A DNA stretch of 64,000 nucleotides from Piscicola geometra (taxonomy: Eukaryota > Annelida > Clitellata > Hirudinida > Piscicolidae), in NCBI GenBank assembly GCA_943735955.1, contig OX030961.1, forward strand, positions 1,029,501 through 1,093,500. The letters run 5' to 3'. Below are positions 26,436 through 61,346 of this stretch, piece by piece; positions within the stretch are counted from its first letter, which is position 1, and each line of letters begins with the position of its first letter. The translations under genes were made by a program, and so were the position numbers. The notes under the pieces were generated by a model. That model was not told where the DNA came from and made no database searches. It worked only from the letters and a program-made list of their open reading frames with translations.

Positions 26436-27735
26436 TCAAGCATGGATGATGTTCGCGTTAATAGTGCCGTTAGGTCCGTTGTTGGTGGCGAAATCGTCTT
26501 TGTCGGCGAGGAAACGCAGTCTTCTCTCGTCCTCTTCGTCAGCGTGTTCCACTGCTCCGTTGCCGTTGCCGTTGCTCTCTTTGTGGACTGCAGCCTGCGT
26601 TGGAGGTGCCGTATGAAGTATGCGAAAGCAAAAGAGAAATAGTGTAAATAATTGAAGTTGCATTCAAAATTAACTCAAAAGTGTTGATACTCATGGATTA
26701 AATATCCTTTTTGATATTGAAAAGTCACAAACGTCATAATGGGCGATGGGGGTCTTAGTGCGGTTGCTTTTCTTCTTGTGATAACAAAACAGAAGAAATA
26801 AAAGAGAAAAAAGTAGAAGAAAAAGAAAACAGAGAGGAATTCCAATGGCTAAGCCCAGCACGCACTGATGTCCACATGCACTAGCGATGCCTGCATCTGG
26901 AAGGTCTTGAGTCTTTAGTTAGTGCCTTAAAATTAAAATTCAAAAACGTTTAGTTGACTGCAAAAAGTACACTGACTGTGACACTGAGTTTGGGAAATGG
27001 AGGCTTGAGGAGACACACCACCAGAGGGACATGCCGTACAAAGAACAGCTCCCTCTCGCGAGTTGAAGGTATTCGCTGGACAGACGGAACAATTGGCTCC
27101 ACTCTGGAAGAAACCAACTGGGCACACAACTGTGCAGTGATAAATTCTAAGTTTGTTTCAGGGCTTAGATGGATTGGTAGCAAGCTAAGAAGCATTACTT
27201 ACAACAAAGGTCGTCATTGTTGGTGACTTCCCCCTCCAGGCAGTTGTATTTGAAAAAGACGGGGTTGAAGCCGAAATCAAACTGGTTTTGGAGGCCTTGT
27301 GTTTTAGAGTGAGTGACCACCCCAATGAAATAGCCGTTGATGTCTTGTGATATTTGGTCCAGAAGTGTTCCGAGAGTGTTCTTCTGAAGCGGCTGATTCG
27401 ATGACCTGTATGTGCAGTTTGTATATAATTGTGTATCTGCAAAGAACGCATGAGGTGGGAAACAACAAGTTCAAAGACTAGCATTGTTTCTGCTCCAAGA
27501 TCGAATTTGTAAACCAAATCTTCGACACTTCGCTTGCGTCTTTTGTTTCGACCAGGGCTGCAGCCATCAGTTGCCACGTTGAACAGCAAAGGTGGAAGGA
27601 CCAGCGAAGTTTTCCTTTTGACAACCGAAGAGAACAAGTGCTGACGGGTGTACTCGTGGTAAAAGTCATAGTTGGACTGGCATTTGTTTGGCAGTTGCAA
27701 AGGCAGAACTCCTGTCAGAGTTCTATGTTTGATTT
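26436..27735 (-). CDS. Exons 27-31 of the receptor gene: stalk, Cys module, TM helix and tail
   Basis: Exon 27 ends near GRNKRRKR, a furin-like basic site. Exon 28 leads into exon 29, CPVGFFQSGANCSVCPANTF ... LCTACPSGGVSP, an ephrin-receptor-like (GCC2/GCC3) module. Exon 30 has the helix VLGLAIGIPLCFLFLLLFSL continuing LFLLFCY, then KKKSNR as stop-transfer. Exon 31 encodes an acidic tail (EHADEEDERRLRF) and stops at 26,436. The exon 27 to 28 donor is uncertain: the frame runs on after KRRKR (SVEDLVYKFDLGAE), so alternative donors are possible. Confidence 0.75.
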
Positions 27736-30700
27736 CTGGGGGTGGTTCAGTGAGAATATCAAATAAAGATTTTTTATTTTAAATATTAAAATATATTTAA
27801 AGATTATCCGAAAATGTATAAGGGTTAATCCAGAATCGATTACAGACTTACGATTTGCAGTGTCTTACTTGTTTTTATAAAGAATGGAAAATCGCATCCA
27901 AGACTGGATGCATTTTTTTTTAGGAAAAGGAATATAAAAATATTATCCATGTAAAATATTCATAATAAATACTACGATATTATACTTTCTAGCTATTTAA
28001 AAATTGAAAATAGGCTAAAAACGCATGTCTTAAATTTCTTTTACAAATCTCAAATATTAAATTTTTAGATTTATGTTTTAGTTAGTTCTATCCGGTTTGA
28101 TTTATTCAGTCATAGGCATATTTAAAAACGTGTTTTTACTTTTCTCTATTTTAGAATACTCAATTTATATGAGTTTTTGGCTGTTTTGTTCATTCCAACA
28201 ATTTCTGTTCTGATTTCAGCGTCTCGCTATTAAGCAACAAGTGAGTAATATAATATTTTTTTCTGAATGGGTAAAAAATGATAAACGTTAAATATTGGGC
28301 TCTTATGTTTATTTTTCGTAAAACTATATTATTATTTTATATCATGCACACCATGACGTTAACACAAATGTCCCGATTCACATAAGACAAGGATTAGGTG
28401 TCACGAATTTACAGTAATTTTTGTAGTATTTTTATAATATTAATTAAAGAAGGCATTGAATGAAGAGTATTTTGAGATAAGCATCGTCTAATAATTTATT
28501 TCATGAAGCTTCTAAACTAATAAAATAGCTCTGTTTGTCCCGATTTCTCATAATGGTGATTAGGACATTAATACACTATCATGATTTGCTTGTTAAAATA
28601 GATTTTTCTACAATATTGGGTTCTTTTAAAATAATTAAAGTTTTAACGTTAAAAAGTAATTGGATATTAATTAAATTATTTTCAAAAACCATTTCATGAA
28701 GTAAAAATAGCTATTTTAGTGAAAAATAATAAGTTACGGAAATTTAAATGACCGTCATTAAGAGCGCTATTTTAAAAAGTTGATTTTAACTTTCTTATTT
28801 ACGCAGCAACGCAGCATTAGTAACAATTGTGTGAAAAAAAGAAGGAAAAAAGAAAACTAAACAAAAATTAAATTAAGAAATTTTATATTGTATTTTAAAT
28901 GAGGTTTTATGGCTGTCAGTGTTCACTGATAATCTCAAAAACTATTTGCTCAATTAAAAAAGATAAATGCAATTATTGTGTTTGAAATAATTTTTATACT
29001 CTATAATACATACATGAGTGTACATAAAGTAAGTTTTTTTGAAATTGAAAACCTAAACATAGAAAGACAAAGTCTGTAGTCAAATCTGGATTAACCCATA
29101 AATATTTTCGTTATTTAATAACTCTACACTCTCAAAACCAACAATGCTCACTTTGGCACTGCATCACTTCGGCATTTTCCTGGAAGAGGGGACTCCAAGG
29201 CCCGTTGGAGCATTGGTACTCAGATGGCATCTCCTTATTCAATATGAATTCAGGGTCACACACAACATTACACTTGAGTACAGGAATAATGTTTTGAGAT
29301 GACCCATGGAAGACACTGCAGTTGAGATAGCCGTTCAGCAGGATCCTGATGAGACATTGCTGAACGTTTGAAGGTGTTCGGAGTGTAAGGAAAGCTTTTT
29401 TATCTCGATCCAGTGAAGCATCATCGTCAAAATCTGGAGTAATAAATTAAATTAAATTTCTAATTTGTAATTAGAAATATTCAAAAACAATTAGAATCAA
29501 CACAAAGCGAACTGTAAGATACGATTACTTTTCAAATACTCAAAAAGCTAAGAGCCACAGGTTGATCGCAACACCTGTCGATGCCTCACTCACAATAGGG
29601 AACTTTGTAGACATGCACGTAGAATGAACAGAATGATATAAGATCCGAAAAGTCTTTCACTTCGTAGAAAACCTTCGTGGAACCCAGTTTGAAAGTCGAG
29701 TTCCAAGTGGGATCAGAGATTATCTCCTTGATTCCGACGTTGTCTGAAGCCTGATAATGGTGGACTACGTTAGTAAATGTGAGAAAAAAAATCTTATGAA
29801 AAATAATTGTAAGGAAAAAGAATAAAATGTATTAAAAATAACAACAACTTTCCTCAATGACGAACCAACCTTGACTGGCACCCATCTGACGCTTTCAGCC
29901 TCCTCTCCAAAGGTGTAAACAACCACATCAGATGGACAAGAAATCACCGGCTTTATAGAATCTGTTCAGTTTATCTTCCAAATTTCATTTTGGACGATAA
30001 ATTGAATGTGTTAAATTACCAATATACACTTTTTAAAAGTTTTCAAGAACGGACCTCTTAGCTTAATTTTGAAGGCACACGAGGCTCTATCGGAAAGGTT
30101 GAGTTTATTACTCGCAGCGCTTCCTTCAAACATAACGTCAAACAGCTGATCCTCAGGAGGGCTTTCCTTTTTCCAATGCAGGATGTTATTCACAGGCCTT
30201 CGTATTAAGCTCAAAGCTCTAGCTTCGCCACGAGAATCCTTCAATTCTGGTCGGAAATTGTCAATCAGATAGCTGGAGAAGGAAGGAAGTTGCAGTTCCA
30301 CCTAAGAAGGCGTGATAGGGATCATTTCAAATAGATGAAAAAAGTTGTAAAAAAATTACAAACCATTTCTTCAGGACACTGACTGAAGTACAAGGGGTCG
30401 TACAAACAACTCTCACAACAGGCGTTCACAGTCTTTTCTCTTTTTTCCACTGTTGAAATAATTATTTGTCATTTTTTCTCCGAAAAATCTCAGTTAGCAC
30501 GTTAGTTTAGGCTTCAATAACAATACGAATAATAGTTATAAAATTAATATTTTAAGAGTATTCTTTTCAATAAAATTAGATTAAAAGGTCTTTATTCAAG
30601 GCACCGGGGCAATCGAGCTCGGGACACTTGAATTGGCTACACACGAAGCCTGGCATGCTATCTGAATGGCCGATGGTCATTTGTCTGCCTTGGCACTGGC

Positions 30701-33425
30701 AGCTTTGGCAAGGAGTCAGACGGATGGTCGAGGAGAAATTGTATATATTGTTCTCGTAGGAGCAAGTGTAAGACCGGTCAGTAGGGTCTGCGTTGTGAAT
30801 GGGATATTAAGTTTTTGAAATAATTTCATTTGGTTTCAGATAGAACTGAAGTTTGAATCGAAAGATACTTATGCATGTTTGCAGTTGTGGGTTGTAGACT
30901 TGGCCGCTTGCACAAACGCAGTAACTCAGCTTTCCAACTATCGTCACACACTTTCCTTGTCCACAGCCTGAACAACCTAGTTAATAAAGTATTAAACGAA
31001 TTATTGTGTTTTCTTTCCATTAAAATATTTTAAAAGTTATTTTATTTCTAAAAGAATCAACATTTTTAAACTTATTTTATTATTAACCGTTCAAAGTCAT
31101 TCTAACTTGCTTTCGCATTCCAGTCGTTTTCAACGATTATTTTTCCAGGTCGCACAAGATTCGAAAGCAGAGGGATGGCCTGAGGAACTGCGTCAGTGAG
31201 GTTTATTGCTTTGAGACTGTTGTCGCTCAAGTCAGTGAAGATGAGAACGTCTTGTTCATAGTGCGCATCACCAACTGCACTCAAATCACTTGGCAACTCT
31301 TTACAGCCAGATCCTGATGAAGTTTGAATAAAATACTTTCATTAAGTTGAACCGATTCATAACTAAATAAATTAAAGTTTTGAATTATCACCTAAAAAGG
31401 AGCATTCGAATTGTTTCCTGTTTGTACCGGCTCCATTGTTGATTACAATGCTCCCTCCGTTAATGGCAATGTCATTGGGCCACAAGTCCGTTCCTAACAA
31501 CTTGCCTTCTAACAACGTTTCTTTAGTGATCTTGGTACTCTGAATCGTTAAAAACTTTGCGTCCAGCTTCGCCACAATGGGATGGTGACCTGTCTCAGTC
31601 CAGAATAAGAAACTGAAAACGCATATGTCTTAAAATAGTAAGACTAAATTAAAATTAAAATTTAAAACTAAAACTCAATTTTTACTTAAAACAACAAAAA
31701 GAGTTGAAAAATAGTTAAATTGGAGAAGTTGCATTAACAACTCAAGTCACGTCATTCAATTCAAAACTCACCCGTTGTTAAACTTGAGAGATCTTGGGCT
31801 GGAAAGATCCGTCAGAACCACCTTGTGTAATTCGTAAGATCTGCCGATGTGCAGGCTGCAGAGAAGACCATGCTGAGAGTCTAGCCACACAAGCAGATCA
31901 CTGCAGAATATTTTCCGTTGATAAGAAAAATTATACTTTTTTGTTTTGTTCAAAAACTCAATTTAAGAATATTTAAAATTAATTTGAAGTTTTGGACTTC
32001 TGAAATACTTATGGAAGGTCATGGAATCGATTTCATTCTCGATTTTGTAGATCTCTACTGGGGAGTGGGTCTTCACACGATGCACTTTCATTATCATGTC
32101 ACTATTGTGAAAAGAAATAATTGAGTCATTTTTAAAATCGAGAAAAATGTTTTAATGAAAAATTATAAACAACATTTATTTGAATTATTTAACAAAATCA
32201 AGACTCCGGCTCCGAGTGTCAATACTTTTCAGTGAAATTTGCTAAATATGTTACAGGCAATAGGTGCATGCAGTTTCCATAATGTAAGCTGAATTCAATT
32301 TTGTAAATCAATATCCGGGGACAAAATTTTAAAGCCCCCTTAAGGGATTTTCCATCAAAATTATATCTACTGAAAAATGAAAGAATCATTAGAAAAATCG
32401 ATTACAAATCATGTAATTGACAAATCAAGATGACATTTGATGCACTTTATAGAATAATGTATGCTGAATTCAATAATAAAAATCAATATCTGAGAACAAA
32501 ATTCAAAATCCCCCTTTGAGGGTGAATCCAGCATACATTATTCAATAAAGTGCAAATAAATGTCATCTTGATTTGTCCACTATATGATTTCACACACAAA
32601 ATTTCTTCCCAAATTGGAGCAGAGAATGAATAATCAGAATATTCAATGATCAAGAATTGTCACATCATTAGACCCCCGATTTAACTATTTAAAATGTTTT
32701 CAAAAATGAAAGCCCAAAGATGATGTTTATAACATAGACATATATTTTTTATATAAATTATACATTTACATATTATGGCATACTTTAAAATTTATTTAAT
32801 TTTCGTTTTGAAAATAATTATAGTTTTTATTTTCGTTTTCGAGGAACGATTATTCAGAATTTTCGTTTCCGTTTTAGTTTTCGTTACGAAAATAACACTG
32901 ATTGAGAGTTGTCCTCTTGTTTGGTGGCAACAACACGAAGAAGCATATCCGGTTCTTGCGAAACTGGCAAGAAAGTACTTGTCATCTCCTGCAACTACAG
33001 TTCCATGTGAACGTCTATTCAGCTTGTCAAGACCCATAGTTAGCAAGAAAAGAGTCTCTTTAGATCCAATTATTGTTTAACAGCTTGTTTGCTTGAGTAA
33101 CTGGCTCAATATGAATGTGTGAGAATTGCATTTTTTAACCATTATTTGTTTTCATTCTTTCATATGTAGATTATTTTTTTGCTTGAATAACTGGCTCAAA
33201 AATGATTTGTGACAATTGCATTTTTTATCATTTATGGATTCATTTTCTTTCTTTTAAATTTGGATTACTTTCATACATAGATTCTGATAAAAATGTTATT
33301 ACATTTGTAAGAAATTAAGAAAAAAATATTATTTTATACTAATGTCAAGTATGCTAAAAAACATTGCGTTAAAATACGATTAACGCACGATTAACGGCGA
33401 TTCAAATTTTTAATCGTGGAACAGC

Positions 33426-33468
<43 letters not shown>

Positions 33469-36400
33469 GCTTTTTATAAAACAGAAGCAAATAAAAACTA
33501 TAAACAATAATAATAATATATTTTAGATACAATTATATATATATATATATTTAACCATTAGTATAAAAAAATGAAGATCAAATTAGTTTTCTGAATAAAT
33601 TTAAGCTCTTTATCTTTTTTAAAACTTTATTTTGAATATATAAAAGATGAAGAAATGTTTCTGAATAATTTAAATATTGCGAAACTTTCTTGGTTTTGCG
33701 CTAGCCACTAGTAGTGGCAAATATTGAAATAATCACTTGAAACATCAACAATTATTTTTTTACTCTATAAAGAACTAAAAACGAATTTAAGAGGCTTAAA
33801 AATCATAATGTTACTTTTCATTGGCAACTTAATATATTATATTATATAATTTATATAGTCTATAGCGCACAAATAAGCTACACCCAATTTAATGTTGTGG
33901 CAAGCAGATTGAATTGACCAAAAAATTAAACTTCTTCTATTGAAACAGAGCAATAATTTTGATGTCACATAAAAAATGAAGGATGACTTTTAAAAACGGA
34001 TATGTGGTTGAAGGTGAATGTAGTCAGAAAGGTAGTTGATTGGATGCTGGAAGGGTGGTTTATTGGGTGTATTGAGGTTGTTTGAAAACTGATTGGGTAC
34101 AGAAAGAGTGCTTGAGAGTTGATTGGTTGCCGGGAGGGTGGTTGAGGGTTACTTGAGTCAGAAAAAGAGGTTGATTTGGGGCAAAAAAGGTGGTTAAGGG
34201 TTGATTGGGCACATTTACTTGTAATTTATTAAAATTTAAATTAAAACACGTATAAAAATTTTGCAAGTGAAATTGCGGGAACTTAATAATTTTTTTAATT
34301 AAACATACTTAATAAAACAAAACTCCCACTTGTTGACGTAATAGATGTACTGGGAAGCCCTGTCATAGGCCAATGCCCGAATGTTGGTGCTGTACATGTC
34401 GCCATACACCAACGTGCTGACCTGGTTCTGTGTCGAGCTCGCTACGTCGAGACTCACCATTTTAATGGAAGTTAAATCGGAGAGAAGAATAAAGTTTGTG
34501 GGCACTGTGTAGCGATGATGTAGTGAGTAGTGTGGGTAGTGTGCATTGTTGCTTTCAAACATTTTTGTGTTTTTGTAGAGAATATAAGGATTGAAAAAAG
34601 GTCATATGATCAAGGAACCTATGCAAAAAGTTTGGTAGTCTTGGTCGTAAGCTCGCAATGAAGGACAGTAGCAACCGCCTTCATAGAAAACACCATCGCA
34701 TCCAGGTTGGATGTTAGCTGCGAAGACGTTCTCTAAAATATGTCAGGTTGATTAATTGAAAACAAATTAAAAAATCAATGTGAAAATCATCTTTAAAGTG
34801 AGTTAAAGCGTAAAAACAAATAATTTAAAATACTTTGGAAAAGGTTTGCAGATTGAAGGTTAAAGACGGAAGAAAAATTTCTTAGAATGACTTTCTCGTC
34901 AAACTGAAGGCTTCTTGAATTTGTATTTCTAGTGTAGATGAGCACTTGCTCGTTCTTCAAGTCACTCACAAAAAGACTATTCTTCAAGCTCTGAGCCCAT
35001 GTGATGCTGAAAGGAATCTACGAAGGGAAGGCCAATGAAGATAATAAAACAAATACTCAAAACATTAAAGTCTTTGAACATTTCGAAATAATTTTTCACA
35101 TTTATTTCAAACTAAAGATTTATAAAAAAATATAAATAAAAATTGTTTAAAAACATAGAAGATTTTCAAATTATTATATAATAATTTATTTTGCTTAGTT
35201 TTTATTAAATGTTTAAAATTAAATTTAAGTAATAATTTTTCACAAAATTCATTTCATAGACTATAAATCATAGTTATATATAAGTTTATTAAGATTTCGG
35301 TTTCGATGAAAGTAAAAAAAAACCTTTTGTCCCATGTCAAAGACCTCCAAAGTCTTTGTGACCAAGTTCATAGAGTATAATTCTGCACCCTTTGGAGCGT
35401 TACCATTGGCAACGTTGTGTTTGTAGTGCGAGTCGATGAAGAAAGCTTTGTCGTTGGAGTCGATGGCAAGACCATTTGGATTGTCGAGGCCTGCGTGCAA
35501 GAACTCTAGTCGTTTAAAATTGACATTTCCATTTTTTTTCTAAAGAATTAAAAGTTTTATTGAGGCGCAAAATTATTCAAGTGGTTACCTGATTTTACTA
35601 CGATTTCTCCCCTAGAAGTTATGTTTACCTTCCCTATCTTTCCGGACATTCCCCAGTCCGTAAAGTAAATCTCCCTTTCATAGTTATAACGGAAGATTTT
35701 GTAACAATGACTAATATTCATCAACTTCAAGTATTTTGAATGGTCATTCGAATATTCTGAGATCTAAAAAAGAATATCCAAAAAGTTGAAAATATTGAAA
35801 ACAACAATCCCTCACCCATTATAGGCGGTCAAGGCTCTCAGCTTTGAGTTTTTTCCACCTTCAAAGACGGTCCAAATGAGGGTCTTCGTTAAGTTTGACA
35901 CATCCATCAAATGGATTCTGTTCCAGCCATATGCCTGGCCAGTTTCTCCGATCAACTCTCCGGAGTCAGTGAAGACTAAGAGATTTTGGCCTTGCAGCAT
36001 AAACATACCTTCGAAAGAAAGTATCGATTATTTGAATTAGTTTCTGCACTCCATGGGCTTTTCAATCAACGAACCTTCCACTGCTCCTATCCCATGATTT
36101 CTGCTCAGCACAAGAGTTGGGCTGGTGCAATTGATTAGACAGCGGTAGATTGCGTAAGGATGCATGTGACTCCAATAAATTATCTGAAATCGAATTTAAA
36201 CTTTTCAAATTAATATGAATTATTCAGAGTTTTTACCAGAATATTTCACATTTTATATGAAATACTTCTCAAACAGGCAGATTGTACTTTAAAAAAAAGT
36301 TACTAGCTTTAGGAGTCGATTAAAACATTTAACTATCAACATACGCCTGTGTTTTCGTCGTATGCCAGAGCGGCAGGCCGCTGCTGCTTATAGACAAAAT

Positions 36401-39400
36401 ACACATCTTTGCTGATTTGAAATACGTTTTTGAAAAGGCCGTCATCGACGACATATGCAATGTAACCGTAATCAATGAGGGTGAAGAGAAGCGCTTTCCA
36501 AGACCATGTTGAATCTTTATTTAATAAAACAAATTTAAATATAGTAATATTGAACTAAATTATTTTTTAATGAATTAACTAAATAAAGAATGTTTTTCTA
36601 ACACAATTGATTGTACCTGTGCAAATGTAGCCATTTGGCACAAGTCCTCCGTAAGAGGGACACATGAAGACGCTTTGGTTTTTGACAGTTGTGCAGATGC
36701 CATTTTGCAGGCGCAGGCCCACACAAGAGTTTGTGATTCCTTGTGCTGTGAAAGCAAGCTCGAGTCAAGGCTTTGAGAAGTTAAAGCAAAAAGAATATTA
36801 CCGAAAAAAACAGTTTAGAATAGAATAAAATGTCATTCAAGAGAGATCACCATCGAGAGAGGTTTCCGACGCCAGTCCGCACAAAACAGAGCCCAAGTTG
36901 TTTTCGGAAACTTCTACTTGGTGCGTGTCCATTGCCACTGTGAGAATGAAGCCCCTCCTCGAGAGAGTGGACACGATGAATGAGTTGGTGCTCATGTCGA
37001 TGGTGAGTCCGAACAGATGCTCTTCCTTAATCAACTCTTTAAAGTCAGCCACTGTTCTCACATCTGCTCCTCTGGCGTCTGTCGACATGAGTTGTTTCGA
37101 ATCGGAGTTCAGCCAGTACAAGCGTCTGTGAGCCAGTGTTATTTCGTTTCATAAAATAATTATAGTTTTTATTTCAGTTTCGTTTTGGAATTAATTATAG
37201 TTTTTATTTTCGTTTTCGGGTTGAAAATAATTGAAGTTTTTATTTTCGTTTTCGTTTTGAAAATAATTAAAGTTTTTATTTTCGTTGCAGTTTTGAAAAT
37301 AATTAATGTTTTTATTTTCATTTTAGTTTTGAAAATATATTAATTTACAATTTTAAACACTTTTTTTTTTTATTTAAAAAAATTAATTGATCATAAAATG
37401 AAACAGTAAAATAGAACTGTATATTAACAACAAATGAGTTTTAAAAACTAACAGCCAATTGAAATATTATAAGAATTGAGTACGTAAATTATTTAGTAAT
37501 AACAAATTTGAAATATAATAACAAATTTACTATTAAAATAAGTGATAATCTAACTGACAAAGCGAAGAGGTAATAAATACCGTTTTATAAATGGCGCTAC
37601 TTTCATAAAGCCCAAAGATAATGTTTTTAACATAGACATATATTTTTTTTATGAATTATTCATTTGCATATTATGGCATACTTTGAAATTTAATTCTCGT
37701 TTTGAAAATAATTAAAGTTTTATTTTCGTTTTGAAAATAACTATAGTTTTTATTTCCGTTTTCGTGGAACGATTATACAGAATTGTCATTTTCGTTACGA
37801 AAATAACACTGCTGTGAGTGTTTTGAACGTAGATTATTTACAGAAATGAAGGATCAAGTGGACTTTTAGAAGGTCACACCCACCTTTCATGCACCACCAT
37901 GTGGTTGGGGTACTTGGTGTTTGGCACAATTACTTCCCTTTCTGACCCGTCCAGCAAACTTCTTTCTATTCGGTTCATCTTTTGGTCGTTCCAGTATAAA
38001 AATCTGTAGAACATCATTGTTTAAACTCAAAACGACAATGATCAAACGATGAAAGGTTCACCAACGCGAATCATGCCGCACGCACCCGTTTTGCAGGTCA
38101 AGCGCAATTCCTCTGGGAGCCCCAATGTTTATGAAAACAAGAGTTCGTCTGCTTTTCAAGTGGTAAGAGTACATTTCCACAGTGGCCTGTCCCTCGTCAG
38201 TCCAGTAGAGGTTGTTGTGCACAGGGTCGACTGCCAAGCCCAGGACTCTGATGGCCCCTGATAAAAGATTGAGAAAATTATTTTGATGTGCAAAATCGTA
38301 AAGTAGATTATGATTCTTTCAATTCCTATACAGATATTTTGAAATTCTGTTATGAAACATAAAGGTTATATTTAAACTTCGGTAGTTTATATTTTTTTCT
38401 TTTCACTGACTTGGATTAAGGTCAACCTTGGTGTCAACGTTGAGATTGGCGAGGTTGGCGGAGTAAATGCCGCTGTAGTACGCTGATACATCGCTCCAAA
38501 ACATCAGCGAGTCATCAACCAAATCGACCGCTAAAGAGAATATCATCCCGTAAGGCTGTTTGAGGTGTCAGATTAGGCGAGATGACAGCTTTGTAGATAT
38601 TAATCTATCAAATATTAAGATTTAAATTGACCTACGTTGTGGTAGAGAGTGGTTTGTTGAGAAGCTTTGATGGAGAGAATGGAAGTCTGATTTGAGACGA
38701 AGTAGCCCTCTGTCGGATTTCAATGCTTTTTTATTTCTGCAGTCAACTACTATCTTAAATTCAAAAGTATCTGTTAATAAGGCTAATATTTTTCGCAAAT
38801 CTTTGACGCCTTAGTTTGGTAGCATCATTGAACGCTTCAAATGGGCTCCGAAAGGCGCTCTCTTCTCTTAAGCTTTTCTGATGTCTGCTCTCATTTTTGG
38901 GACTTGTCGGTTGTGAGTTTGCAAAAACTGATTATTTTGGACTATCAGTGATTCTGCGAAACAAATTAAAATACAAATGATGGCACTTCGATTAGTTCAT
39001 TAAATTATTTTTTTCGGAAAATTTAAAGTTATAATTTTAGAAATTTAAATTTTTTTTGCATTTTAATTCAGCTGTTTTTTTAGAGCTGTGCGGTAATCTA
39101 AGTTACCTTTCGATTAATGCCCGTTAAACATTTAAACACCGTTAAAAGGATTAATGAATTTCTAACAAATTAACGCATTTAACAAATGTAATGCATTTAA
39201 TTGATCAAAATTAAGAAAACGAGGAAGAAAAAAAAAGCAAAGATACCATTGAAACTGTTTGAGGGAACAACAATCGGAACGTGGAACGTGAGAACGCTTC
39301 ATGCGTGCGGCAAGATCAACGAGCTGAAGCGCTATCGATGGATATCATTGGACTGGCCCAAGTCAGGTGGTCAGGGTTTGATGAGACAACAACAGATGAT

Positions 39401-40867
39401 GGACACGAGATCTGCTTCAGTGGAGACGACTCCAAACTTCGCAATTCTTTCATATAAGGATTACTTTTTTGCTTGACTAACTGGCTCAAAAATGATGTGT
39501 GAAATAGCATTTTTTATCATTAATAGATTCTTTTTTTTCTCTCAAATGTGGATTACTATTATAAATACATTCTGGTAAAATTTCCATCACATTTATGAGA
39601 AAAAAAAAGTAAAATAATATTTTATACTAATGCGTTAAAATACGATTAACGCACGATTAAAATGTTTAATCGAACGATTAACGGCGATTAAGATTTTTAA
39701 TCGTGGAACAGCTCTGTTGTTTTTATGTTTGGTAATTGCAACAGTTGTGGGCTTTTGTTGTCATTCCAAAAAGTTTTCTAATTAAAGCAACTGCCACACG
39801 AAAAACTGTTTCTCAATATGAGCCATTCAATAGACACTCTCCAAGCGCTTCATCTTTAAATTATTAAAATGAAAAATAACAAACTAACTTACATGCCGTA
39901 CTGTAAATAACAGCATAAGGCTTCAAACGGGAGATTTATGGAAGGGATTTAAAGACTGTTATGTTCCAGATAAAGACTATTAACCTCAAGAAAGTAACGG
40001 AAAAATAGAAGTAAAAGTCATTGAAACCGCTATTTTTAAATATTCAGAATAGGGAAAATATTAAGAGATTCAGGGTGTTGTTTTCCAAATGAAAAGTTCA
40101 TGACTTCAGATGAGTCTGTGTTGGATCACACACTTGAGTGGAGCAACAGTGGCCTTGGGAGATTGCCACTAATCTCAAACGCTCTGAGGTTCTTTCAAAG
40201 CTATATTCAAATCAACATCACTTTTCAATTAAGTTGATATTCTTAATCATTTCATTCAGTATTTTTGATAAAAGGTTTCAATCTATCGAGGATGATTCTT
40301 GGCAGTTTCAAACTGCTTTTTCCCACCCCTTATGCCAGTGTAGAGATGCATAACAAAATTGATTACCAAACAATATCGGCATAACTTAAACAACAGATGT
40401 GTGCCTGTATGATCTACATGAACAAACAGAGAATAGCTCGGTACAAGTGAATTTTTGACTAATTAGCAAAGAATTTTTTAATTGAAAGATGTAAGACAAC
40501 TAATAATTAATATAAAATCTAAAACCAAAAGCTTTGATCCTCTCTAGTCATGTTGCAAATGGAAAGACAAGATTCTTTGTGAGAGCCTCATACACCATGA
40601 CATAAGGAACCGTCGTCACTTGGAACTCTAATAAAACTCACTTCATGCAGAGATATTAAGCCGAGTGCACGCAACTATTTTCCAAATAACCTTCGCAGCA
40701 CTTGTTTCCTTGTTCAATTAAGTTATAATTGAGACAGCTTTATTGGGACTTGAGTACAAACCTCCCAGAGAGAGTGAGTGAACGATTAAGAAGAAGAGGA
40801 AAAGAACGACTGGAGTCGATGGCGAAACAATGGAAGTTGCTTTTGATTGCATGGAGATTGGAGGCAT
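26436..40867 (-). CDS. Type I membrane protein: YWTD propellers, VWC, HYR, sushi, ephrin-receptor-like module
   Basis: I assembled 31 exons with GT-AG borders and matching phases; together they give 5,037 nt, 1,678 residues. Exons: 40867-40762, 38709-38632, 38530-38411, 38257-38086, 38003-37884, 37125-36851, 36745-36617, 36514-36345, 36183-36075, 36008-35816, 35710-35589, 35505-35324, 35017-34834, 34732-34619, 34504-34309, 32101-32009, 31900-31772, 31612-31392, 31313-31107, 30976-30869, 30787-30605, 30449-30364, 30301-30055, 29961-29870, 29750-29594, 29433-29152, 27735-27529, 27436-27203, 27129-26948, 26912-26733, 26594-26436. The only weak junction is 27,529/27,436. LDL-receptor-type propellers usually bind ligands or act in signalling or endocytosis; HYR and sushi are adhesion modules. 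I infer a cell-surface adhesion or scavenger receptor. No single known family with this order comes to mind. Confidence 0.85.
27736..29151 (-). other. Intron 26 of the receptor gene, no feature recognised
   Basis: AT-rich 1,416-bp intron. No transposon motif or extra exon found on either strand. Confidence 0.5.
29152..30787 (-). CDS. Exons 21-26 of the receptor gene: VWC, two HYR domains, sushi-like module
   Basis: Exons 21-22 (residues about 1010-1099) have the von Willebrand C pattern TPCQSCQCQGRQM ... FVCSQFKCPELDCP ... ACCESC. Exon 23 ends in DRASCAFKIKL, the closing strand of a hyalin repeat. Exons 24-25 form a clear HYR: PVISCPSDVVVYTFG, VRWVPVKASDNVG, FKLGSTKVFYEVKDFSD, CSFYVHV. Exon 26 is sushi-like with LKCNVVCDPEF and YQCSNGPWSPLF. 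HYR next to sushi is common in SVEP1 and SRPX proteins, but those lack YWTD propellers. Confidence 0.8.
30869..34504 (-). CDS. Exons 15-20 of the receptor gene: third propeller and EGF module
   Basis: Residues about 692-1009. Blades read IRALAYDRASQYIYYVNK, LLVWLDSQHGLLC, GFLFWTETGHHPIV and DVLIFTDLSDNSLKAINL. Exon 20 is a compact EGF-like closer: SCSGCGQGKCVTI, SYCVCASG, LQTC. Intron 15 (32,102-34,308) holds a hAT copy, a foldback and a degenerate array. Confidence 0.8.
32415..32582. repeat. Inverted repeat in intron 15
   Basis: GACAAATCAAGATGACATTT at about 32,421 and its complement near 32,579 flank arms of about 50 bases that also pair GCACTTTATAGAATAATG with CATTATTCAATAAAGTGC. Loop about 60 bases. 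Confidence 0.75.
32578..33433 (+). mobile_element. hAT element, family H1, copy B (5' truncated, in intron 15)
   Basis: Parallels copy A from ATTTCACACACAAAATTT onward. On the plus strand it encodes an ATSLDPRF-type box near 32,670 and at 32,920-33,080 LVWWQQHEEAYPVLAKLARK, then ATTVPCERLFSLSRPIVSKK, an unbroken hAT C-terminal dimerisation domain. It ends with AATCGTGGAACAGCTTTA next to a (TA)n run at 33,434-33,465. A fragment of MITE H2 (about 32,709-32,905) sits inside, just before the coding part. Confidence 0.8.
34020..34215 (-). repeat. Degenerate tandem array, unit about 30 bp
   Basis: Variants of GGTTGATTGGGT(G/C)... spaced about 30 bases apart, at least six units, poorly preserved. 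Lies in intron 15. Confidence 0.6.
34619..36514 (-). CDS. Exons 8-14 of the receptor gene: second propeller and EGF module
   Basis: Residues about 333-691. The blades are more diverged: RPAALAYDENTG, IIYWSHMHPYAIYRC, REIYFTDWGMSGK and NPNGLAIDSNDKAFFID. Exon 14 is a Cys-rich EGF-like closer: GCDGVFYEGGCYCPS. N-glycosylation sequons (NISH is spliced out, NITS kept) are present. Introns here are short, about 50 to 300 bp. Confidence 0.8.
36617..38709 (-). CDS. Exons 2-7 of the receptor gene: first YWTD propeller and EGF module
   Basis: Residues about 36-333. Blades carry the YWTD-type motifs MFWSDV (38,490s), NLYWTDEG (about 38,200), FLYWNDQ (about 37,990) and RLYWLNSD (about 37,110), with the usual GLAVD and GIALD turns between. 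Exon 7 is an EGF-like closer: NSCVGLRLQNGICTTV, FMCPSYGG, NGYICT. The exon 6 acceptor is formed by the target duplication of a transposon (see 37,134-37,811). Confidence 0.85.
37134..37811 (+). mobile_element. hAT-type MITE H2 abutting a splice acceptor
   Basis: Ends CAGTGTTATTTCG and its complement AAATAACACTG are terminal inverted repeats. The 8-bp flanks are CTGTGAGC (37,126-37,133) and CTGTGAGT (37,812-37,819), a target duplication with one mismatch. The interior is non-coding, with a subterminal run of ATTATAGTTTTTATTTTCG-like units. Left flank and exon 6 are in contact: the acceptor AG of intron 5 is the last two bases of the left duplication read on the minus strand. Partial copies: 32,709-32,905 and 45,837-46,247. 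Confidence 0.85.
39081..39716 (+). mobile_element. hAT element, family H1, copy C (non-coding, chimeric)
   Basis: Starts TAGAGCTGTGCGG and ends GTGGAACAGCTCTG, which pair as terminal inverted repeats; flanks TGTTTTTT/TTGTTTTT may be a target duplication. The 3' third matches copies A and B. The middle (39,200-39,445) is replaced by an RTE endonuclease fragment. Lies in intron 1 of the receptor gene. Confidence 0.65.
39200..39445 (+). pseudogene. RTE LINE endonuclease fragment inside hAT copy C
   Basis: The plus strand reads TTIGTWNVRTLHACGKINEL then KRYRW, the start of an RTE endonuclease, with later residues scrambled by small shifts. It ends where hAT sequence resumes (AAGGATTACTTTTTTGCTTG, compare 33,170). 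Confidence 0.75.
40762..40867 (-). CDS. Exon 1 of the receptor gene: signal peptide
   Basis: ATG at 40,867 (A at -3) starts MPPISMQSKATSIVSPST, followed by the hydrophobic core PVVLFLFFLIVHSLSLG. The donor GGAG|GTTTGT leaves phase 1, matching the phase of exon 2 (E-GYFVSNQT). The next upstream in-frame codons contain no ATG before a stop. Intron 1 is 2,052 bp and carries a hAT copy (39,081-39,716). Confidence 0.8.
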
Positions 40868-41204
40868 TGTAAATGTAGTTGTAAATGATGATGTTTTTTC
40901 TCGCAAATCAAGTGAATATCTTTTGAAGCTGTTTGCCGAGTTTTTTCGGTTGTTCAGTCTACAGATGAAGTTTGATCTCTTGTGAGGGCTGCTGTGTGTG
41001 GTGGTGATAACTGTTTTAAGTGATTAAAAATCGAAATGGTTATGAGATAATTAAATTAGTTCTGAGATAGAGTTTGCATAATTATATTGTATCGCTCGGC
41101 TAAACAATCCGGGCAACGGTTTAAAGCTATTAGCTATTCCCATGCTGAAATGAACAAATAATGGAAATAATAATAAACAGAAATTAAATAATAACTTTGT
41201 AAAA

Positions 41205-42275
41205 TGAAGAGATGGATGAGTGTGTGGATGGAGAGATGAATGGAGAGATGGATGGAGAGATGGATGAGTGTGTGGATAGAGAGATGGATGGAGAGATGGA
41301 TGAGTGTGTGGATAGAGAGATGGATGGAGAGATGGATGAGTGTGTGGATGGAGAGATGGATGAGTGTGTGGATGGAGAGATGGATGGAGAGATGGATGAG
41401 TGTGTGGATGGAGAGATGGATGGAGAGATGAATGGAGAGATGGATGAGTGTGTGGATGGAGAGATGAATGGAGAGATGGATGAGTGTGTGGATAGAGAGA
41501 TGGATGGAGAGATGGATGAGTGTGTGGATAGAGAGATGGATGGAGAGATGGATGAGTGTGTGGATGGAAAGATGGATGGAGAGATGGATGAGTGTGTGGA
41601 TGGAGAGATGGATGGAGAGATAGATGAGTGTGTGGATGGAGAGATGGATGGAGAGATGGATGAGTGTGTGCATGGAGAGATGGATGGAGAGATGGATGAG
41701 TGTGTGGATGGAGAGATGGATGAGTGTGTGGATGGAGAGATGGATGAGTGTGTGGATGGAGAGATGGATGAGTGTGTGGATGGAGAGATGGATGAGTGTG
41801 TGGATGGAGAGATGGATGGAGAGATGGATGAGTGTGTGGATGGAGAGATGGATGAGTGTGTGGATGGAGAGATGGATGAGTGTGTGGATGGAGAGATGGA
41901 TGAGTGTGTGGATGGAGAGATGGATGGAGAGATGGATGAGTGTGTGGATGGAGAAATAGATGGAGAGATGGATGGAGAGATGGATGAGTGTGTGGATGGA
42001 GAGATGGATGAATGTGTGGATGGGGAGATGGATGGAGAGATGGATGAGTGTGTGGATGGAGAGATGGATGAGTTTGTGGATGGAGAGATGGATGAGTGTG
42101 TGGATGGAGAGATGGATTGAGAGATGGATGGAGGGATGGATGAGTGTGTGGATGGAGAGATGGATGAGTGTGTGGATGGAGAGATGGATAAGTGTGTGTA
42201 TGGAGAGATTGATGGAGAGACGGATGAGTGTGTGGATGGAGAGATGGATGAGTGCGTAGATGGAAAGATGGATAA
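41205..42275. repeat. 12-bp-based minisatellite, about 1.07 kb
   Basis: Built from GATGGAGAGATG and GATGAGTGTGTG blocks, giving higher-order 24- and 36-bp units. Because the period is a multiple of 3, long frames stay open on both strands (repeating DECVDGEM on plus, and IHLSIHTL and SPSTHSSI on minus). I treat these as by-products of the repeat. Confidence 0.9.
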
Positions 42276-44006: not shown

Positions 44007-45052
<1,046 letters not shown>

Positions 45053-45836: not shown

Positions 45837-46247
45837 CAATTGAAATATTATAAGAATTTTATTACGTAAATTATTGATTAATAACAAATTTGAAGTATAA
45901 CAACAAATCTATGATTAAAATAAGTGATAATTTAATTCATGAAACGAAGCGGTAATAAAATAACGTTTTATAAATGGCGCTACTTTTATAAAGCCCAAAG
46001 ATAATGTTTATGACAAAGACATATATTTTTTAAAAAGTTATTCATTTGCATATTATGGCATATCATAAAAATTTATTTAAATTTCGTTTTGAAAATAATT
46101 ATAGTTTTTATTTCAGTTTCGTTTTGAAAATAATGATAGTTTTTATTTTCGTTTTCGTTTTGAAAATAAATTTAGTTTTTATTTTCGTTTTCGTGGAACG
46201 ATTATTCAGAATTGTCGTTTTCGTTATCGTTACGAAATTAACACTGC
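45837..46247 (+). mobile_element. MITE H2, partial copy
   Basis: Matches 37,460-37,811 (AAGCCCAAAGATAATGTTT, then the GTTTTGAAAATAATTATAG run) and ends GAAATTAACACTG. The left end is lost at the 16-bp array. Confidence 0.75.
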
Positions 46248-50737: not shown

Positions 50738-51099
50738 TATATATGTTCGCTTTATTAATATAAAGCAAACATCCTCTATTTCTTCTTCTTTTTTTACTCT
50801 TGCCCAGCCATTTTTTTATTATTTTTGTTTTTACAATTTATTTTTCAAAATACAATCAATTGAGAAAAAAAAACAAAAAAACTTTGATATGGTGAAAAAT
50901 GTTCTGTCTAGAACAAAAAATGTAATTGTTCCAATAATGGAACACTGAGCAAAAACGAGGGGAATCAAATTTAACAATGAATCAAATTTTTTATTATAAA
51001 AAAAATTTTGACAACTGTTTTTTAATATTTTTATCTTTTGAATATAAATATAAAATTAGTTTAAAATAAAATTAGTGAAAAAATTAATATTATTATATT

Positions 51100-51870
51100 T
51101 TTTATGAAAAGTTTTAGAGCATTTTTCACATATTCTAGTTGTGTTCTTCTTGCAAAGAGCGCACCTAGTTTGCTTTTCTGCTGAAATTACATTATGTTCT
51201 AGTTTATCGAACCTGACAGGGCTTGGCATTCAACTTTCCACAGGCTTGCCACTTTTGGCCCTTTCACTACCTGAGAAAGAGTGGCATATCAACAGAAAGT
51301 TTTTTTCCTCTGTTGATATCCATCGTTGACATGAAACAACTGGACTGATGCCTTTGACATTTCTTCTGATATAAAATAGAGAGTTATCGTTCCAAATGAA
51401 TCTTTCACTATTGGATGCTTTTTCCAGTTTATAATCAAAAGAACCCTAAAAGTTTTTTTAATTGTGTACTTAGCAATGCTAATTCTTAGCCTAACTGGAC
51501 ACTTTCCTAATCTGTTGTATCTTAGTGTTCTACAGTATTCATAACCTTTTCTTTGAAGTTCATTAATTAGATTCAGGGAGCAGAAAAAACTATCTTCAAC
51601 AAAACATTTTATATTTTTGAAACTAAATTCAAAATAACGATGGCCCAAGACCCAACTCCTTGTCGTATACTGGACCTTTTGTTCTCTGGTAGGGCTCATA
51701 TTAAATTGAAAAAGCAAGACGGTTGCGAAGAAAATATAACTTGAATCCATACATCATTGGCTTCTCTCTCATGAATTGTTTTGCACCATTTTTCCATAAT
51801 GTATAGTGCCATGCTTTCATCCACACTGATGCTTCCAAGAAAGCATTTTCTATAAATTTTTGACTAGAAA
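51100..51870 (-). pseudogene. piggyBac-like transposase relic
   Basis: Minus-strand order: SVDESM (first catalytic Asp region, about 51,830), KPMMYGFKLYFL (about 51,760), VEDSFFCSLNLINELQRKGY (second Asp region, about 51,590), YNRLGKCPV, then near 51,215-51,120 the C-terminal Cys finger RCALCKKNTTRICEKCSKTF. This is the piggyBac/PGBD order. Frameshifts separate the pieces and the N-terminus is not seen; no TTAA-flanked ends were found. Confidence 0.75.
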
Positions 51871-53466
51871 TCTAACTTCGGTAAATTATTTTTTTAAATT
51901 TTGTGCACAACGGATAAAATGAATATTTAAAAACTTATAGTAAAATTTGACTCACTTTTCTTATAAGGGGATATTCATAATTTGTTGACAATTTATGATA
52001 AATAGGATATAAATTGATGATTAATTATATTTAAAGAAAAGATAAGTTATTAAGAATAAGCACAAAAAAGCAGAATTCAATAAGTTTTAAAAGGTTAGTA
52101 ATTATTTTTCTTTAGCCCTATTTTCAAAAGATTTTTTTCTTTCTTTGAATTAGCAAAAAAAATCACCAAAAATATAATTTCAAGATAATCAACAAACTAT
52201 TAAAACCATATTGTAGTTAACTCATTCATAAACAAATTTAAATTTAAAAATTAAAGATTTACTGGTTATTTAATATTCTGTTAACTTTTTTTCTTGATTT
52301 TTCAATATTGGAACACTGAGAAAATATGGGTTAACTGCCCGCTTCAAATACATTCCTTTGTTTTCCTACTTATTTTTTCAGACAGCCATTAGTGCTTTTC
52401 TTTCTTTATTGCCACATTTCGCTGGAACCTTTGCAAGCCCTGCATCCTTTCTTTGAAAATCCATCGCATCAGAACTAGAGTTTTTTTGTCAAGACGGGAA
52501 AATGTTTTACGAATAATGTCCATTATTCCATTGGCTTTGTTGACCCTGGTGGTGATTTCTTCTTCAAAGTTCAGACCCTTTTCGAGAATTACTCCTAGAT
52601 CTTTCTCTTTGTTTACCTGTTGTAGCTCGATGGTGTTTCCGTCTTTAGTTGTCATTTTATAAACTGGTGTTGTCATTCTGCTCTTCAATGTCATCGTCTT
52701 GCATTTGTCTGCATAGAAATGTAAGAGCCATTTGTTTGGCCATTCTTGTAGCTCTTTAATGTCTCTCTGGAAAATGCATCTATCCTATTGCCTCTGGGGT
52801 TTTCTATTGATTTTTGTGTCATCAACATAGAGCATAATGTTAGACTGCACAAAATCTGGTAGATTGTTAATGTGTATGACGAACAGTAGTGGTCCTAGAA
52901 CGGAACCCTGGGGGATGCCGCTCAGAGCTGGGTCCGTCGACTTGCACCCTTTGCACACGATCACTGAGGAAACTCTTCACCCATTCATATACACTTCCAC
53001 TGGTCCCGTAGCTTTTGACTTTCTCCCGTAGACGCAAGTGTGGCACCGTGTCGAATGCTTCCATGAAGTCAATTACGAAGCCTTGATCCATCCAATCTGA
53101 TAAACTCTTCATTACATGCAATAATTGTAGTGTTGTCGATCTGCCTGTGACAAACCCGTATGGGTGTGGGCTGAATACTTTTGACTCTTCAAGTGGTGGA
53201 TCATGTGGTCGCGCAGAATCGACTCTAAGATTTTACATGGGACTTTCGTGAGGCTTATAGGTCTATACAATACAATACAACGACGAGTATCATTAACGTG
53301 GCGTAAACCCGACAGGCTTCAAGACCACTAAGTTATGGGAAAGTTAATAATAATATTAATACTGATGAATGAGTAAATAAATGTATGAAAAGTATAAGTA
53401 AAGCAAGTTTTAAAATAAAAAAATAAATAAAATATAGATATAAAAACCTGCACGTATAATATATAT

Positions 53467-55672
53467 CAGGGGTGCACAACCTTTTTCAGTCTGAGGGCCA
53501 AAATTCTTTAGTCCCTGGACGCCAAGGGCCGCATCAGCGTTCACATAGATCACACAATAAAACAACTCAAAGAATGCAAATTTGTGAAAAATTTCATAAA
53601 AAAATAACGTTATTTAAACATGTATGAATAACTAAATGTCAGTATTTTAATGAGAAGATTGAGCCTGAATGGTTGCAACAACATTTTCAATATTGGGTTC
53701 AAGTTCCGTTGTTGCAAGCCTCAATATCGAACAAAGATTATCATCAGACAAAGATGATCTCAGTTTATTTATATTTGTGTTCATGACTGAAAACGTTTGA
53801 AGCCCGTCCGGGTTTACGCCACGTTAATAACACTCGTCGTTGTATTGTATTGTATGTGCTGCCAAATTCAGACAAGATTCGGCAAGCCAAATCTTTGACC
53901 GCTCCATATTTAACTGAACAAAGTTAAAATGGAGTTATGCTGAAACGCAGACATTAATTCTGGTGAACATTGAAAATCAATGTCTTCTAACTGACATTGC
54001 TCACGTACGGATTCTACAGCACAAGAGAAAGGGTCACGGATGAAGTTGAATAAATCCTTATGCTCCCTGAATGCATCAAAACGTTCATTAAATTCCTTTA
54101 GTAACGCTTCACAACTGTCGTGGTATTTATTGAAGTCACATTGGTATTCTTTCTGAAAAGCTGAACAAATAGGAAAATGACATAAATTACCAGATTGCAG
54201 ATTCAAACAAAACAGCCGTAGCTTCAAAGGGAATGACAGCAGCTCTTGGTACATATCAAAGATGTAGTGATCTTTGCCTTGAAGACGCAGATTCAATTTA
54301 TTTAATTGTTCTGCTATGTCTGTCAAAAATGCCAAGTCTGCCAACCACTGTTTGTCTGTAAAAACAGCTGTGTCTTTGCTTTTGGTAACAAGGAACTCAC
54401 AGATTTCCTTTCGTAACTCAAGAAACCTAGTTAGAAGTTTTCTTCGACTCAACCACCTTACATCAGTGTGATATGGTATGTCACGATATTCTGTTTTCAA
54501 GAAATGATCTGAATTGTCGATGGTTAAGTCCTTTTGCTCGTATGAAGTTCACTGACTTAAAAACAAATTTTATAACATTATCAAAATTAATGACTCGTGT
54601 ACACAGTGACTCTTGATGTATGATGCAGTGGTATGCGTGGATGGTGTCTGTTGGAGTTCCCAAGTCTCGCAAATGTGACCGCAGATGAGCAACAAGTCCT
54701 AATTCTTTACCGGTCATGGCGGGTGCACCGTCAGTAGTAACACTACAGAGTTTTTGCCACTGGACGTTAAGGTTTTCAAGAACAGATTTCACTCCTCCAA
54801 AAATATCTGCACCAGTCGTACGTCCACGTAGTGAGGACCTTCCTGCTAATTCCTGAGTTAATTTACAGTTCTCATCCACCACACGAACAAACCCAAAAGC
54901 TGTGCTGTGTCAACGTTATCCGTGCTCTCATCTAAAGCAATTGAAAAATACTTGAATATGGCAAGCTTGTAACGCAACTGTTCACAAACGTCGTTGGATA
55001 AATCAACCACCTGGCGCTGGATAGTCATCCGTGACAATGGCACTTTGTTGAACAGGTCTGTTTTCTCAGGACAGACTTCTTTGCAAATGGCTTGCATGCA
55101 TTCTTTGACGAAATCACCATCAGTAAATGGTCGAGACGATCGTGCAATAATCTGTGCTACGGCACAACCGGCACGAACAAAAGTCTTATTTTCATTAACT
55201 TTTTTTGTAAAAAAAGTTTGCTCAGATGACAATTTTTTTACAAGTTGATCAATTTTATTTTTTCTAGCTTTGCCTTTCACATCATCAAACGTAGCAGCGT
55301 GTTTGGTTTCATAATGTCTTTTGCGATTGTAGTGCTTCATTTCAGTTACGGACTCGCGACAAATTAGGCACAAAGCTTTACCGTTGAAATGCTGCATAAA
55401 ATATTTTTCTGTCCATTTTTCATTAAACTGACGATTTTCTGCTTGAATTTTACACTTTGACATTCTTACTAAATTAAAACAACCAGCGCGCAAACTCAAT
55501 TATCGCTCGTTGTTGTCGTTTCAAGCGTTTTATCTTAGGGATGTGCGAACAGTACTATTAAAAAGAGATGGGCGGGTGCATCGATTTAAAATTCTGTTAG
55601 GGCCGCAAATAGCCAAAATGGACGAGTTGTTTGGGGGCTGCATCAAACGGGCCCGCGGGTTGTGCACATCTG
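53467..55672 (-). mobile_element. hAT element (GTF2IRD2/ZBED-like transposase) in LINE 3' UTR
   Basis: Ends CAGGGGTGCACAACC and (complement) CAGATGTGCACAACCC; ATATATAT flanks both sides (53,459-53,466 and 55,673-55,680), an 8-bp target duplication. The transposase reads on the minus strand from about 55,463: BED-like finger CLICRESVTEMKH...H, ALDESTDNVDTAQL (first catalytic Asp), SVTTDGAPAMTG, YHCIIHQESLC, YHTDVRWLSRRKLL, and the C-terminal SVMNTNINKLRSSLSDDN. Two small frameshifts and a 60-bp LINE fragment in the C-terminal part (53,797-53,860) inactivate it. Confidence 0.9.
53797..53860 (+). mobile_element. About 60-bp LINE 3'-end insertion inside the hAT
   Basis: GAAGCCCGTCCGGGTTTACG to TTGTATTGTATTGTA is only the terminal block of the CR1-like family, interrupting the hAT reading frame between CLNLAAH and VFSVMNTN. 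Confidence 0.8.
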
Positions 55673-57619: not shown

Positions 57620-58240
57620 TGTATTTTATGCACAGGTGACGGTGAACAGTTCCAGTTTGATGATATAAAAGCATTCCAGCGTTCTCACTATTACGAGGCT
57701 GTAGATTCGCTATATAACACGATCAGCTGGCGTTTTGACGTGCAAAGTGAGTTTGCATACAATGAGAACGAGGAGCAACACGTCTCGGCTCCAGTGAATA
57801 ACCTTCGACCACTGTGCCCTACTAGGTGGACCGAACAAGCGTCAGCAATAAACAGCGTAATTTGAAACTATGAGCACCTTATGGAAACGCTTGAGCGTAT
57901 AGAAGCTGATCGAAAAACTCCTTCTGAAGCAGTCATTACAGCACGTGGTTTCTTGAATACCTTGCATTCAGCAAAAACATACTTTAAATGTTCAGTTGCT
58001 CATCGTCTGTTTGCATTAACTGACTCGTTTGCTACGGCATTCAGGGTCCTACTATGACGATCTCAGAAGAGATGCGCCGTAAACGTCACGTGATGAGCGA
58101 ACTCACAGTGTTAAGGAATCAATTTGAAATAAAGTTTGATGCCGCTGTGAATGAAGCAAAGAGGATGGATCTGGAAGACATGAAGTTGCCTCGTCGACGA
58201 CGTGTTCCTGCCAGCATTGTAGAAGGTGTGTACTGTTTAT
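57620..58240 (+). pseudogene. ZMYM1/52-kDa-repressor-like hAT transposase, copy 1, 5' part
   Basis: After an acceptor-like ATGCACAG, the plus strand reads FQFDDIKAFQRSHYYEAVDS, NNLRPLCPTRWTEQASAIN (about 57,805-57,860), NYEHLMETLERIEADRK, TYFKCSVAHRLFALTDSFAT, then after a one-base shift PTMTISEEMRRKRHVMSEL and RRRRVPASIVEG, ending at a GTGTGTAC donor (58,227). This is the middle of a DUF4371-type hAT transposase. One stop and one shift are present. The first block (FQFDDIKAFQ) is out of its usual order and is repeated at 58,360. Confidence 0.75.
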
Positions 58241-58299
58241 AGTTTAATCTGGGTTTTTTTCTGTATGTATATCTTTTTAACTTTGGTTGCTGATACATT

Positions 58300-61190: not shown

Positions 61191-61346
61191 AACCAAAGTT
61201 AATGAATTTCAAAAGGCTTCGAACATTAACTAAAGTGTTGGTTAAATCAAACTACACGTTTCATATCACATGACTGCCAAAATGAAATGCTGATGCTTTT
61301 AGCTCATTCTATCGTTAGAAACATAGTGCACACTGTTAGTGCCGAA

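Follow-up and report, generated by a model that had tools for sequence, protein, structure and literature searches.

A leech gene that probably belongs to an unnamed family of cell-surface receptors with LRP-type propellers and a Polydom/SVEP1-like core

Members of the LDL receptor family (LRP1, LRP2, LRP4, LRP5/6) are built of YWTD propellers followed by EGF-like modules and have a single transmembrane helix. As far as the excerpt of PMC11772764 extends, an NPxY tail is found in VLDLR, LDLR, LRP8, LRP4, LRP1, LRP1B, LRP2 and SORLA, and the domain list of the LDL-receptor superfamily does not include HYR. Polydom (SVEP1), the domain list of which is given in PMC10281526, and the Polydom-like proteins of Nematostella have a common core of sushi, HYR and Ephrin_rec_like (TKE) modules; Polydom is secreted and carries VWA, pentraxin and long sushi arrays, and in the excerpts of both sources propellers are not mentioned (PMC12549020, PMC10281526). 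The terms 'LDL' and 'LRP' are also absent from the main text on the Nematostella proteins (PMC12549020), and Ephrin_rec_like together with HYR has been described in a bacterial protein (excerpt of PMC6993872). Here we describe a gene that combines both sets of modules. It lies on the minus strand, at 26436-40867, of a 64,000-nucleotide stretch of the genome of the leech Piscicola geometra (assembly GCA_943735955.1, contig OX030961.1, positions 1,029,501 to 1,093,500), hereafter the window. To judge from its sequence, the gene probably belongs to a family of type I cell-surface receptors that has no name, appears to be eumetazoan and joins LRP-type propellers to the Polydom/SVEP1 sushi-HYR-TKE core and a transmembrane anchor.

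The gene encodes one type I membrane protein of 1,650 residues in 31 coding exons with an open frame, and each of the 30 introns is GT-AG. The order of modules is signal peptide, three YWTD propeller-EGF units, VWC, a degenerate HYR, HYR, a divergent sushi, a linker, Ephrin_rec_like, a transmembrane helix and a tail of 69 residues. The Pfam scan, the PDB search, the first protein search and the full-length alignments with the relative P0001 (see below) were done on a first model of 1,644 residues, scanned against Pfam in two pieces (residues 1-992 and the remainder). The propellers, the EGF-like modules and the single helix are shared with the LDL receptor family, but the protein is not a member of that family in the strict sense: class A repeats are absent by Pfam at E up to 10, the tail has no NPxY, and a HYR-sushi-Ephrin_rec_like block is present instead. 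Among 16 proteins compared, NPxY occurs only in that of Solemya (NPVY) and in P0021 (NPTY). With Polydom the protein has the core in common, whereas neither VWA nor pentraxin gives a Pfam match at E up to 10, and the hydrophobic transmembrane stretch sets it apart from the secreted Polydom. SRPX and SRPX2, which consist of sushi-HYR-sushi and a C-terminal DUF4174, resemble it in that sushi adjoins HYR, but they have no propellers, transmembrane helix or Ephrin_rec_like, and DUF4174 has no Pfam match in the window model at E up to 10. An earlier sequence-only reading of the window knew of no named family with this module order, and the papers listed by our literature searches likewise include no description of it.

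The gene model was obtained by a dynamic-programming search on splice sites and codon usage, for which the training frames were chosen by eye, followed by hand curation through three-frame reading. Its start codon was fixed at 40867 as in the sequence-only reading, the exons of which (a model of 1,678 residues) were not used; the stop codon ending at 26436 emerged from the search and was not preset. A protein search with residues 990-1560 identified P0001, a protein of 1,638 residues with 41% identity across the whole query, encoded on a 5,250-nt contig; the other six of the seven matches contain HYR and have no Ldl_recept_b among their listed domains. Over the full length, P0001 is 45.3% identical; the 1,588 aligned residues extend from the signal peptide as far as GPNGT, close to the C-terminal end of the tail. 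In a three-way alignment the identity is 45.8% over 1,579 residues, and that of the Solemya relative is 26.4%. The contig barely accommodates the 1,638-codon frame, as expected of a spliced transcript, and its 'lgn' label presumably denotes an assembly of public reads. The comparison with P0001 also revised one junction: exon 27 continues beyond RNKRRKR into SVEDLVYKFDLGAET and exon 28 begins later, and the first junction (27529/27436) was dropped. With exon 28 now starting at 27392 and the end of exon 27 moved from 27529 to 27467 or 27479, the protein has 1,650 or 1,646 residues; 27467 is our best guess. The sequence-only reading had taken 30 junctions in phase as a sign of intactness. The gene does look real and intact, and GT-AG introns and an open frame accompany those junctions, although phase agreement alone is weak proof because gene models are built to agree. 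What proves the model is the colinear full-length relative, which also bears out that reading's other claim, that this is one gene with a real module order and not two neighbours joined.

All features are on the minus strand. The signal peptide (residues 1-34, exon 1, 40766-40867) was recognised by eye from the hydrophobic stretch LFLFFLIVHSLSL and aligns with the start of P0001; intron 1, of 2 kb, follows it. Propeller 1 (residues 37-297, exons 2-6, 36852-38707) is assigned from Pfam and PDB, propeller 2 (residues 341-636, 34856-36617) from BLAST, where its top matches are propeller 2 of P0001, P0012 and P0008, and propeller 3 (residues 682-948, 31132-34619), which includes the 2.2-kb intron 15 with transposon remains, also from BLAST. 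Pfam gives Ldl_recept_b at 1.9e-17 over the first 992 residues, and the best PDB matches of the propellers are LRP2, LRP4 and LRP6 (top 5.3e-88), in agreement with their earlier description as LRP-like. The three EGF-like modules were identified by cysteine pattern only and two of them are reduced: the first (residues 298-340, 36618-36851) to four cysteines, in alignment with P0001, and the second (residues 650-681, 34620-34715) at a place where P0001 has more cysteines. The third (residues 958-992, 30870-30974) has six cysteines and no Pfam EGF match. VWC (residues 998-1068, 30406-30773) has ten cysteines and a Pfam match of 3.7e-5 and 24.4 bits, below the cut-off of 27.6, which its counterparts in Solemya and Saccostrea pass. 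The degenerate HYR-like stretch (residues 1070-1165, 29960-30402) is assigned from position, a CP...C pattern and alignment, and is followed by a HYR (residues 1166-1244, 29604-29959) found by Pfam at 1.1e-7 and 32.5 bits (cut-off 21.7). The divergent sushi (residues 1272-1341, 29153-29362) is assigned from alignment with relatives, among which the aligned stretch of Solemya barely passes Pfam (20.9 versus 20.7 bits) and that of Montipora fails (16.8 bits). Ephrin_rec_like, or GCC2-GCC3 (residues 1496-1544, 26981-27127), matches Pfam at 2.9e-5 and 24.2 bits (cut-off 23.1) and is listed at C7:1056481-1056597 by the search of the leech genome. The transmembrane helix (residues 1556-1581, 26784-26861) is evident from hydropathy and aligned in P0001, with which the cytoplasmic tail (residues 1582-1650, 26439-26783) shares DEE.ER.L.FL and GPNGT. 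Thus, the SVEP1-like character that the sequence-only reading had ascribed to the HYR-sushi-GCC2/GCC3 block holds, by Pfam for HYR and Ephrin_rec_like and by alignment only for sushi, as does the helix with a short tail. A weak PDB match to thyroglobulin (E 0.042) was also seen over the Ephrin_rec_like region (26981-27300, residues 1465-1540 of the first model). Intron 1 contains a LINE-endonuclease-like fragment (LINE, long interspersed nuclear element) near 39230-39450 and intron 15 a hAT-like fragment within 32757-33077, both families being assigned by eye.

The same module order is present in predicted proteins of bivalves, a cephalopod, Lingula, Owenia, a coral and a hemichordate. P0001 as a query led to P0008 of Solemya velum (one of three matches, the third being a propeller protein without HYR), and a search with P0008 returned 45 matches, of which 13, the query included, are family members; the remainder are mostly LRP-like or HYR-only. 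The members come from Pinctada, Saccostrea, Lingula (two), Owenia, Ylistrum, Mizuhopecten, Argonauta, Montipora and Glandiceps, with two more, and their automatic names are often "LRP4-like" or "LRP6-like". In a Pfam scan of 14 proteins, from which Mizuhopecten was left out, Ldl_recept_b was found in 14, HYR in 12, Ephrin_rec_like in 12 and VWC in four (two above cut-off). Ldl_recept_b, HYR and Ephrin_rec_like occur together in 11 of the 14, and in all 11 their order is identical; P0010 and P0020 each have no match to one of these three main modules, and P0013, with no match to two of them, was set outside the family. Solemya ScPMuIL_001039 (P0008), the Lingula 'LRP4-like' protein (P0012), Owenia (P0014), Montipora (P0018) and Glandiceps LOC144447400 (P0022) have propellers, HYR and Ephrin_rec_like ordered as in the window, and the first four also have a hydrophobic transmembrane stretch. 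They differ from the window protein in their tails; moreover, Solemya has a WAP module and the NPVY tail motif, and in Montipora and Glandiceps sushi and HYR occur as several repeats and VWC gives no match. The Saccostrea protein P0011 carries DUF1604 and G-patch domains at its N-terminus. Vertebrate-named proteins among the 45 matches are pro-EGF and LRP8, with no HYR, which is weak evidence of absence, as no dedicated vertebrate search was made.

When the whole model was compared by local BLAST with 14 family and 14 other proteins, the scores were 1352 bits for P0001, 280 for Lingula a and 268 for Solemya, and 120 for the best non-family protein (P0013). Window propellers 1, 2 and 3 each match their counterpart in P0001, Lingula a, Owenia and Solemya; in Lingula b, window propeller 3 matches a later stretch. 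Outside the propellers, the best non-family E-values were 0.65 for the VWC-HYR part, 0.18 for sushi and 0.099 for the part from Ephrin_rec_like to the transmembrane helix. In a tree of 15 rows rooted on two coral-type proteins, the window protein and P0001 group with support of 100/100, and both group with five bivalve proteins at 93/94 (85/87 after a second copy from the leech genome was added and two rows were removed). Owenia, Lingula b, Argonauta and P0021 make up another branch (99/99), and Glandiceps is long-branched. Among the scanned proteins VWC is found only in the window and bivalve branch, where it may have been gained. Should the coral and hemichordate proteins be members as well, the order would be older than the cnidarian-bilaterian split.

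Between sushi and Ephrin_rec_like lies an alignable, weakly conserved linker (residues 1342-1494, mostly exons 27-28, 27204-29152). Across 11 aligned members it has a mean column identity of 27% and four invariant columns, three of them at the C-terminal edge. It contains a furin-type site (R-x-K/R-R), RNKRRKR followed by SVED (residues 1404-1410, 27530-27550), and such a site is present between the same two modules in eight of 15 family proteins (window, P0001, Lingula a, Owenia, Argonauta, Glandiceps, P0017 and P0018) as well as in the second leech copy, which suggests a cleaved two-chain receptor. The linker profile matched the first half of the linker of that copy (1.9e-6 in a small frame set), found nothing credible in the Polydom-like locus on C1 and gave chance-level matches only, with no known domain, against Pfam and PDB. 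A two-cysteine pattern precedes the site in several members, not in the window protein. Neither the furin-type site nor the shared linker had been mentioned in the sequence-only reading. It is tempting to speculate that the linker is SEA- or Notch-HD-like, with two strand-helix-strand halves and the furin cut in the middle loop. The receptors would then be non-covalent two-chain proteins whose large chain could be pulled or shed by ligand, an animal-wide class beside Notch and adhesion mucins that LRP names have concealed and that vertebrates may have lost. As the database matches are at chance level, this idea comes from reading the pattern, and we regard it as rather unlikely.

The leech genome (171 Mb, 66 contigs) contains a second copy of the family at C11:5,484,861-5,497,838 (L013, L014), in which the order is likewise propeller exons, EGF-like, HYR, RKKR site, Ephrin_rec_like. 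A search of its open frames for short cysteine patterns showed no VWC, although one split between exons would have been missed, and the placement of this copy in the tree is uncertain (47% of columns, long branch). Near 9.62 Mb on C1, an Ephrin_rec_like-like frame is followed by three sushi, two HYR, a sushi and three more Ephrin_rec_like-like frames; by these predicted modules the locus is a Polydom-like gene. HYR and Ephrin_rec_like matches are also found at about 7.985-7.99 Mb on C4. The 10-kb stretches at these places (C1:9,618,001-9,628,000, L015, and C4:7,983,001-7,993,000, L016) have no propeller matches. A class A search of the genome listed 149 matches (150 of 191 candidates scored), and among those listed none lies in the window gene or the C11 copy; class A matches do occur near propeller matches on C4, C11:3.90 Mb and C2.

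Several observations weigh against the family we propose, or against its extent. Neither the sushi of the window protein and P0001 nor the first HYR-like stretch (residues 1070-1165) has a Pfam match. P0015, P0017 and P0018 score 107-114 bits, under the best non-family protein P0013, and Glandiceps is outside the best 16 in BLAST; in P0017 and P0018 (Montipora) window propeller 1 best matches the second propeller. Coral and hemichordate membership is thus argued from module order and the linker site, and Glandiceps shows no clear transmembrane helix in its last 450 residues. The tree had no LRP outgroup, and the amino-acid composition of P0001 and P0010 was marked as unusual by the tree program. 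The sequences of most relatives are gene predictions that have not been verified, and P0011 is most likely a gene model fused to an unrelated gene. The linker site is missing from seven of the 15 proteins, namely Lingula b, P0021 and all five from bivalves; cleavage therefore cannot be required in every member, and two of the eight carriers, P0017 and P0018, are near-identical. A propeller locus on C3 is, like the window gene, without a class A match among those listed. The genome search missed the propeller and HYR exons of the window gene itself, so that its absences carry little weight; class A repeats are tested directly by the Pfam scan of the model. Finally, we infer the ligand, the cleavage and the function of the receptor from sequence.

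Other explanations of the gene can be weighed against the same data. It might be a divergent true LRP of the LRP4/5/6 type, hence a Wnt or agrin co-receptor, as would fit the best PDB matches of its propellers and the LRP4-like or LRP6-like names of several relatives; the lack of class A repeats and of NPxY in the tail, together with the HYR-sushi-Ephrin block, makes this improbable. Two neighbours, one LRP-like and one Polydom-like, could have been wrongly joined by exon linking, since the halves resemble separate known families and both kinds have matches elsewhere in the genome. However, P0001 is a single frame on one transcript-like contig and is colinear over its full length, seam included, which renders two genes very unlikely. 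The model itself passes the seam without a stop, and the same join is found in Solemya, Owenia, Lingula, Montipora and others, and in the C11 copy.

The degenerate modules (two EGF-like, the first HYR, sushi) and the transposon-like remains in introns 1 and 15 could point to a decayed gene, the frame of which is still open by appearance. Yet 1,650 codons over 31 exons are free of stops, all splice sites are intact and identity to P0001 stays at about 45% up to the end of the tail; a pseudogene was rejected on these grounds, and we give decay hardly any credence. The sequence-only reading had suggested that it may be a lineage-specific adhesion or scavenger receptor, which would mean a new one made by recent domain shuffling. 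The window protein and P0001 do have a long stem branch in common (1.94 changes per column), and their tail differs from that of the molluscs. Searching relatives for the same order, a check which that reading had itself proposed, decides otherwise: the order recurs in bivalve, cephalopod, Lingula and Owenia proteins, in predicted coral and hemichordate proteins and in the other copy that the leech genome contains. Owenia is an annelid. A recent lineage-specific origin is refuted by the mollusc and Lingula relatives, and membership in a wider family of receptors remains the best explanation.

Several repeats lie in and around the gene. About 340 bp upstream of the start codon there is a minisatellite (41204-42273) of 24/36-bp units with 28.4 copies of the 36-bp unit, and 44007-45052 is a near-perfect (TAC)n array of 1,046 bp (348.7 copies, 99% match). 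One AT-rich repeat, present within introns 5 and 15 and also upstream of the gene, has copies at 37153-37343, 37689-37762, 46072-46194 and, by eye, about 32700-32900. Many transposon-like open frames (reverse transcriptases, hAT transposases) were seen by eye in 1-24000 and 51000-63600 of the window, as was an aspartic-protease-like frame at 6439-7191. Elsewhere in the assembly, C66 is the mitochondrial genome (15,135 bp), with all recognised protein genes on one strand and TGA read as Trp. Its order, from open frames named by eye and from Rfam, is cox1, cox2, atp8, cox3, nad6, cob, atp6, nad5, nad4L, nad4, rrnL, nad1, nad3, nad2, the common annelid mitochondrial order, which marks the animal as an annelid; rrnS was not detected.

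If the gene belongs to the proposed receptor family, furin in the Golgi would cut its product within the linker that separates sushi from Ephrin_rec_like and leave a large ligand-binding chain held by a short membrane stub. The propeller faces would bind secreted or matrix ligands and the HYR-sushi-Ephrin block would hold matrix or other cells, so that the receptor would act in adhesion, clearance or co-reception. The furin-type site and the linker provide a testable claim on processing. More generally, the gene points to an old receptor family in annelids, molluscs and brachiopods, and probably in corals and hemichordates, whose members are often entered in databases under LRP4-, LRP6- or LRP1-like names. 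Work on the Wnt or lipoprotein receptors of these animals may count members of this family as LRPs.

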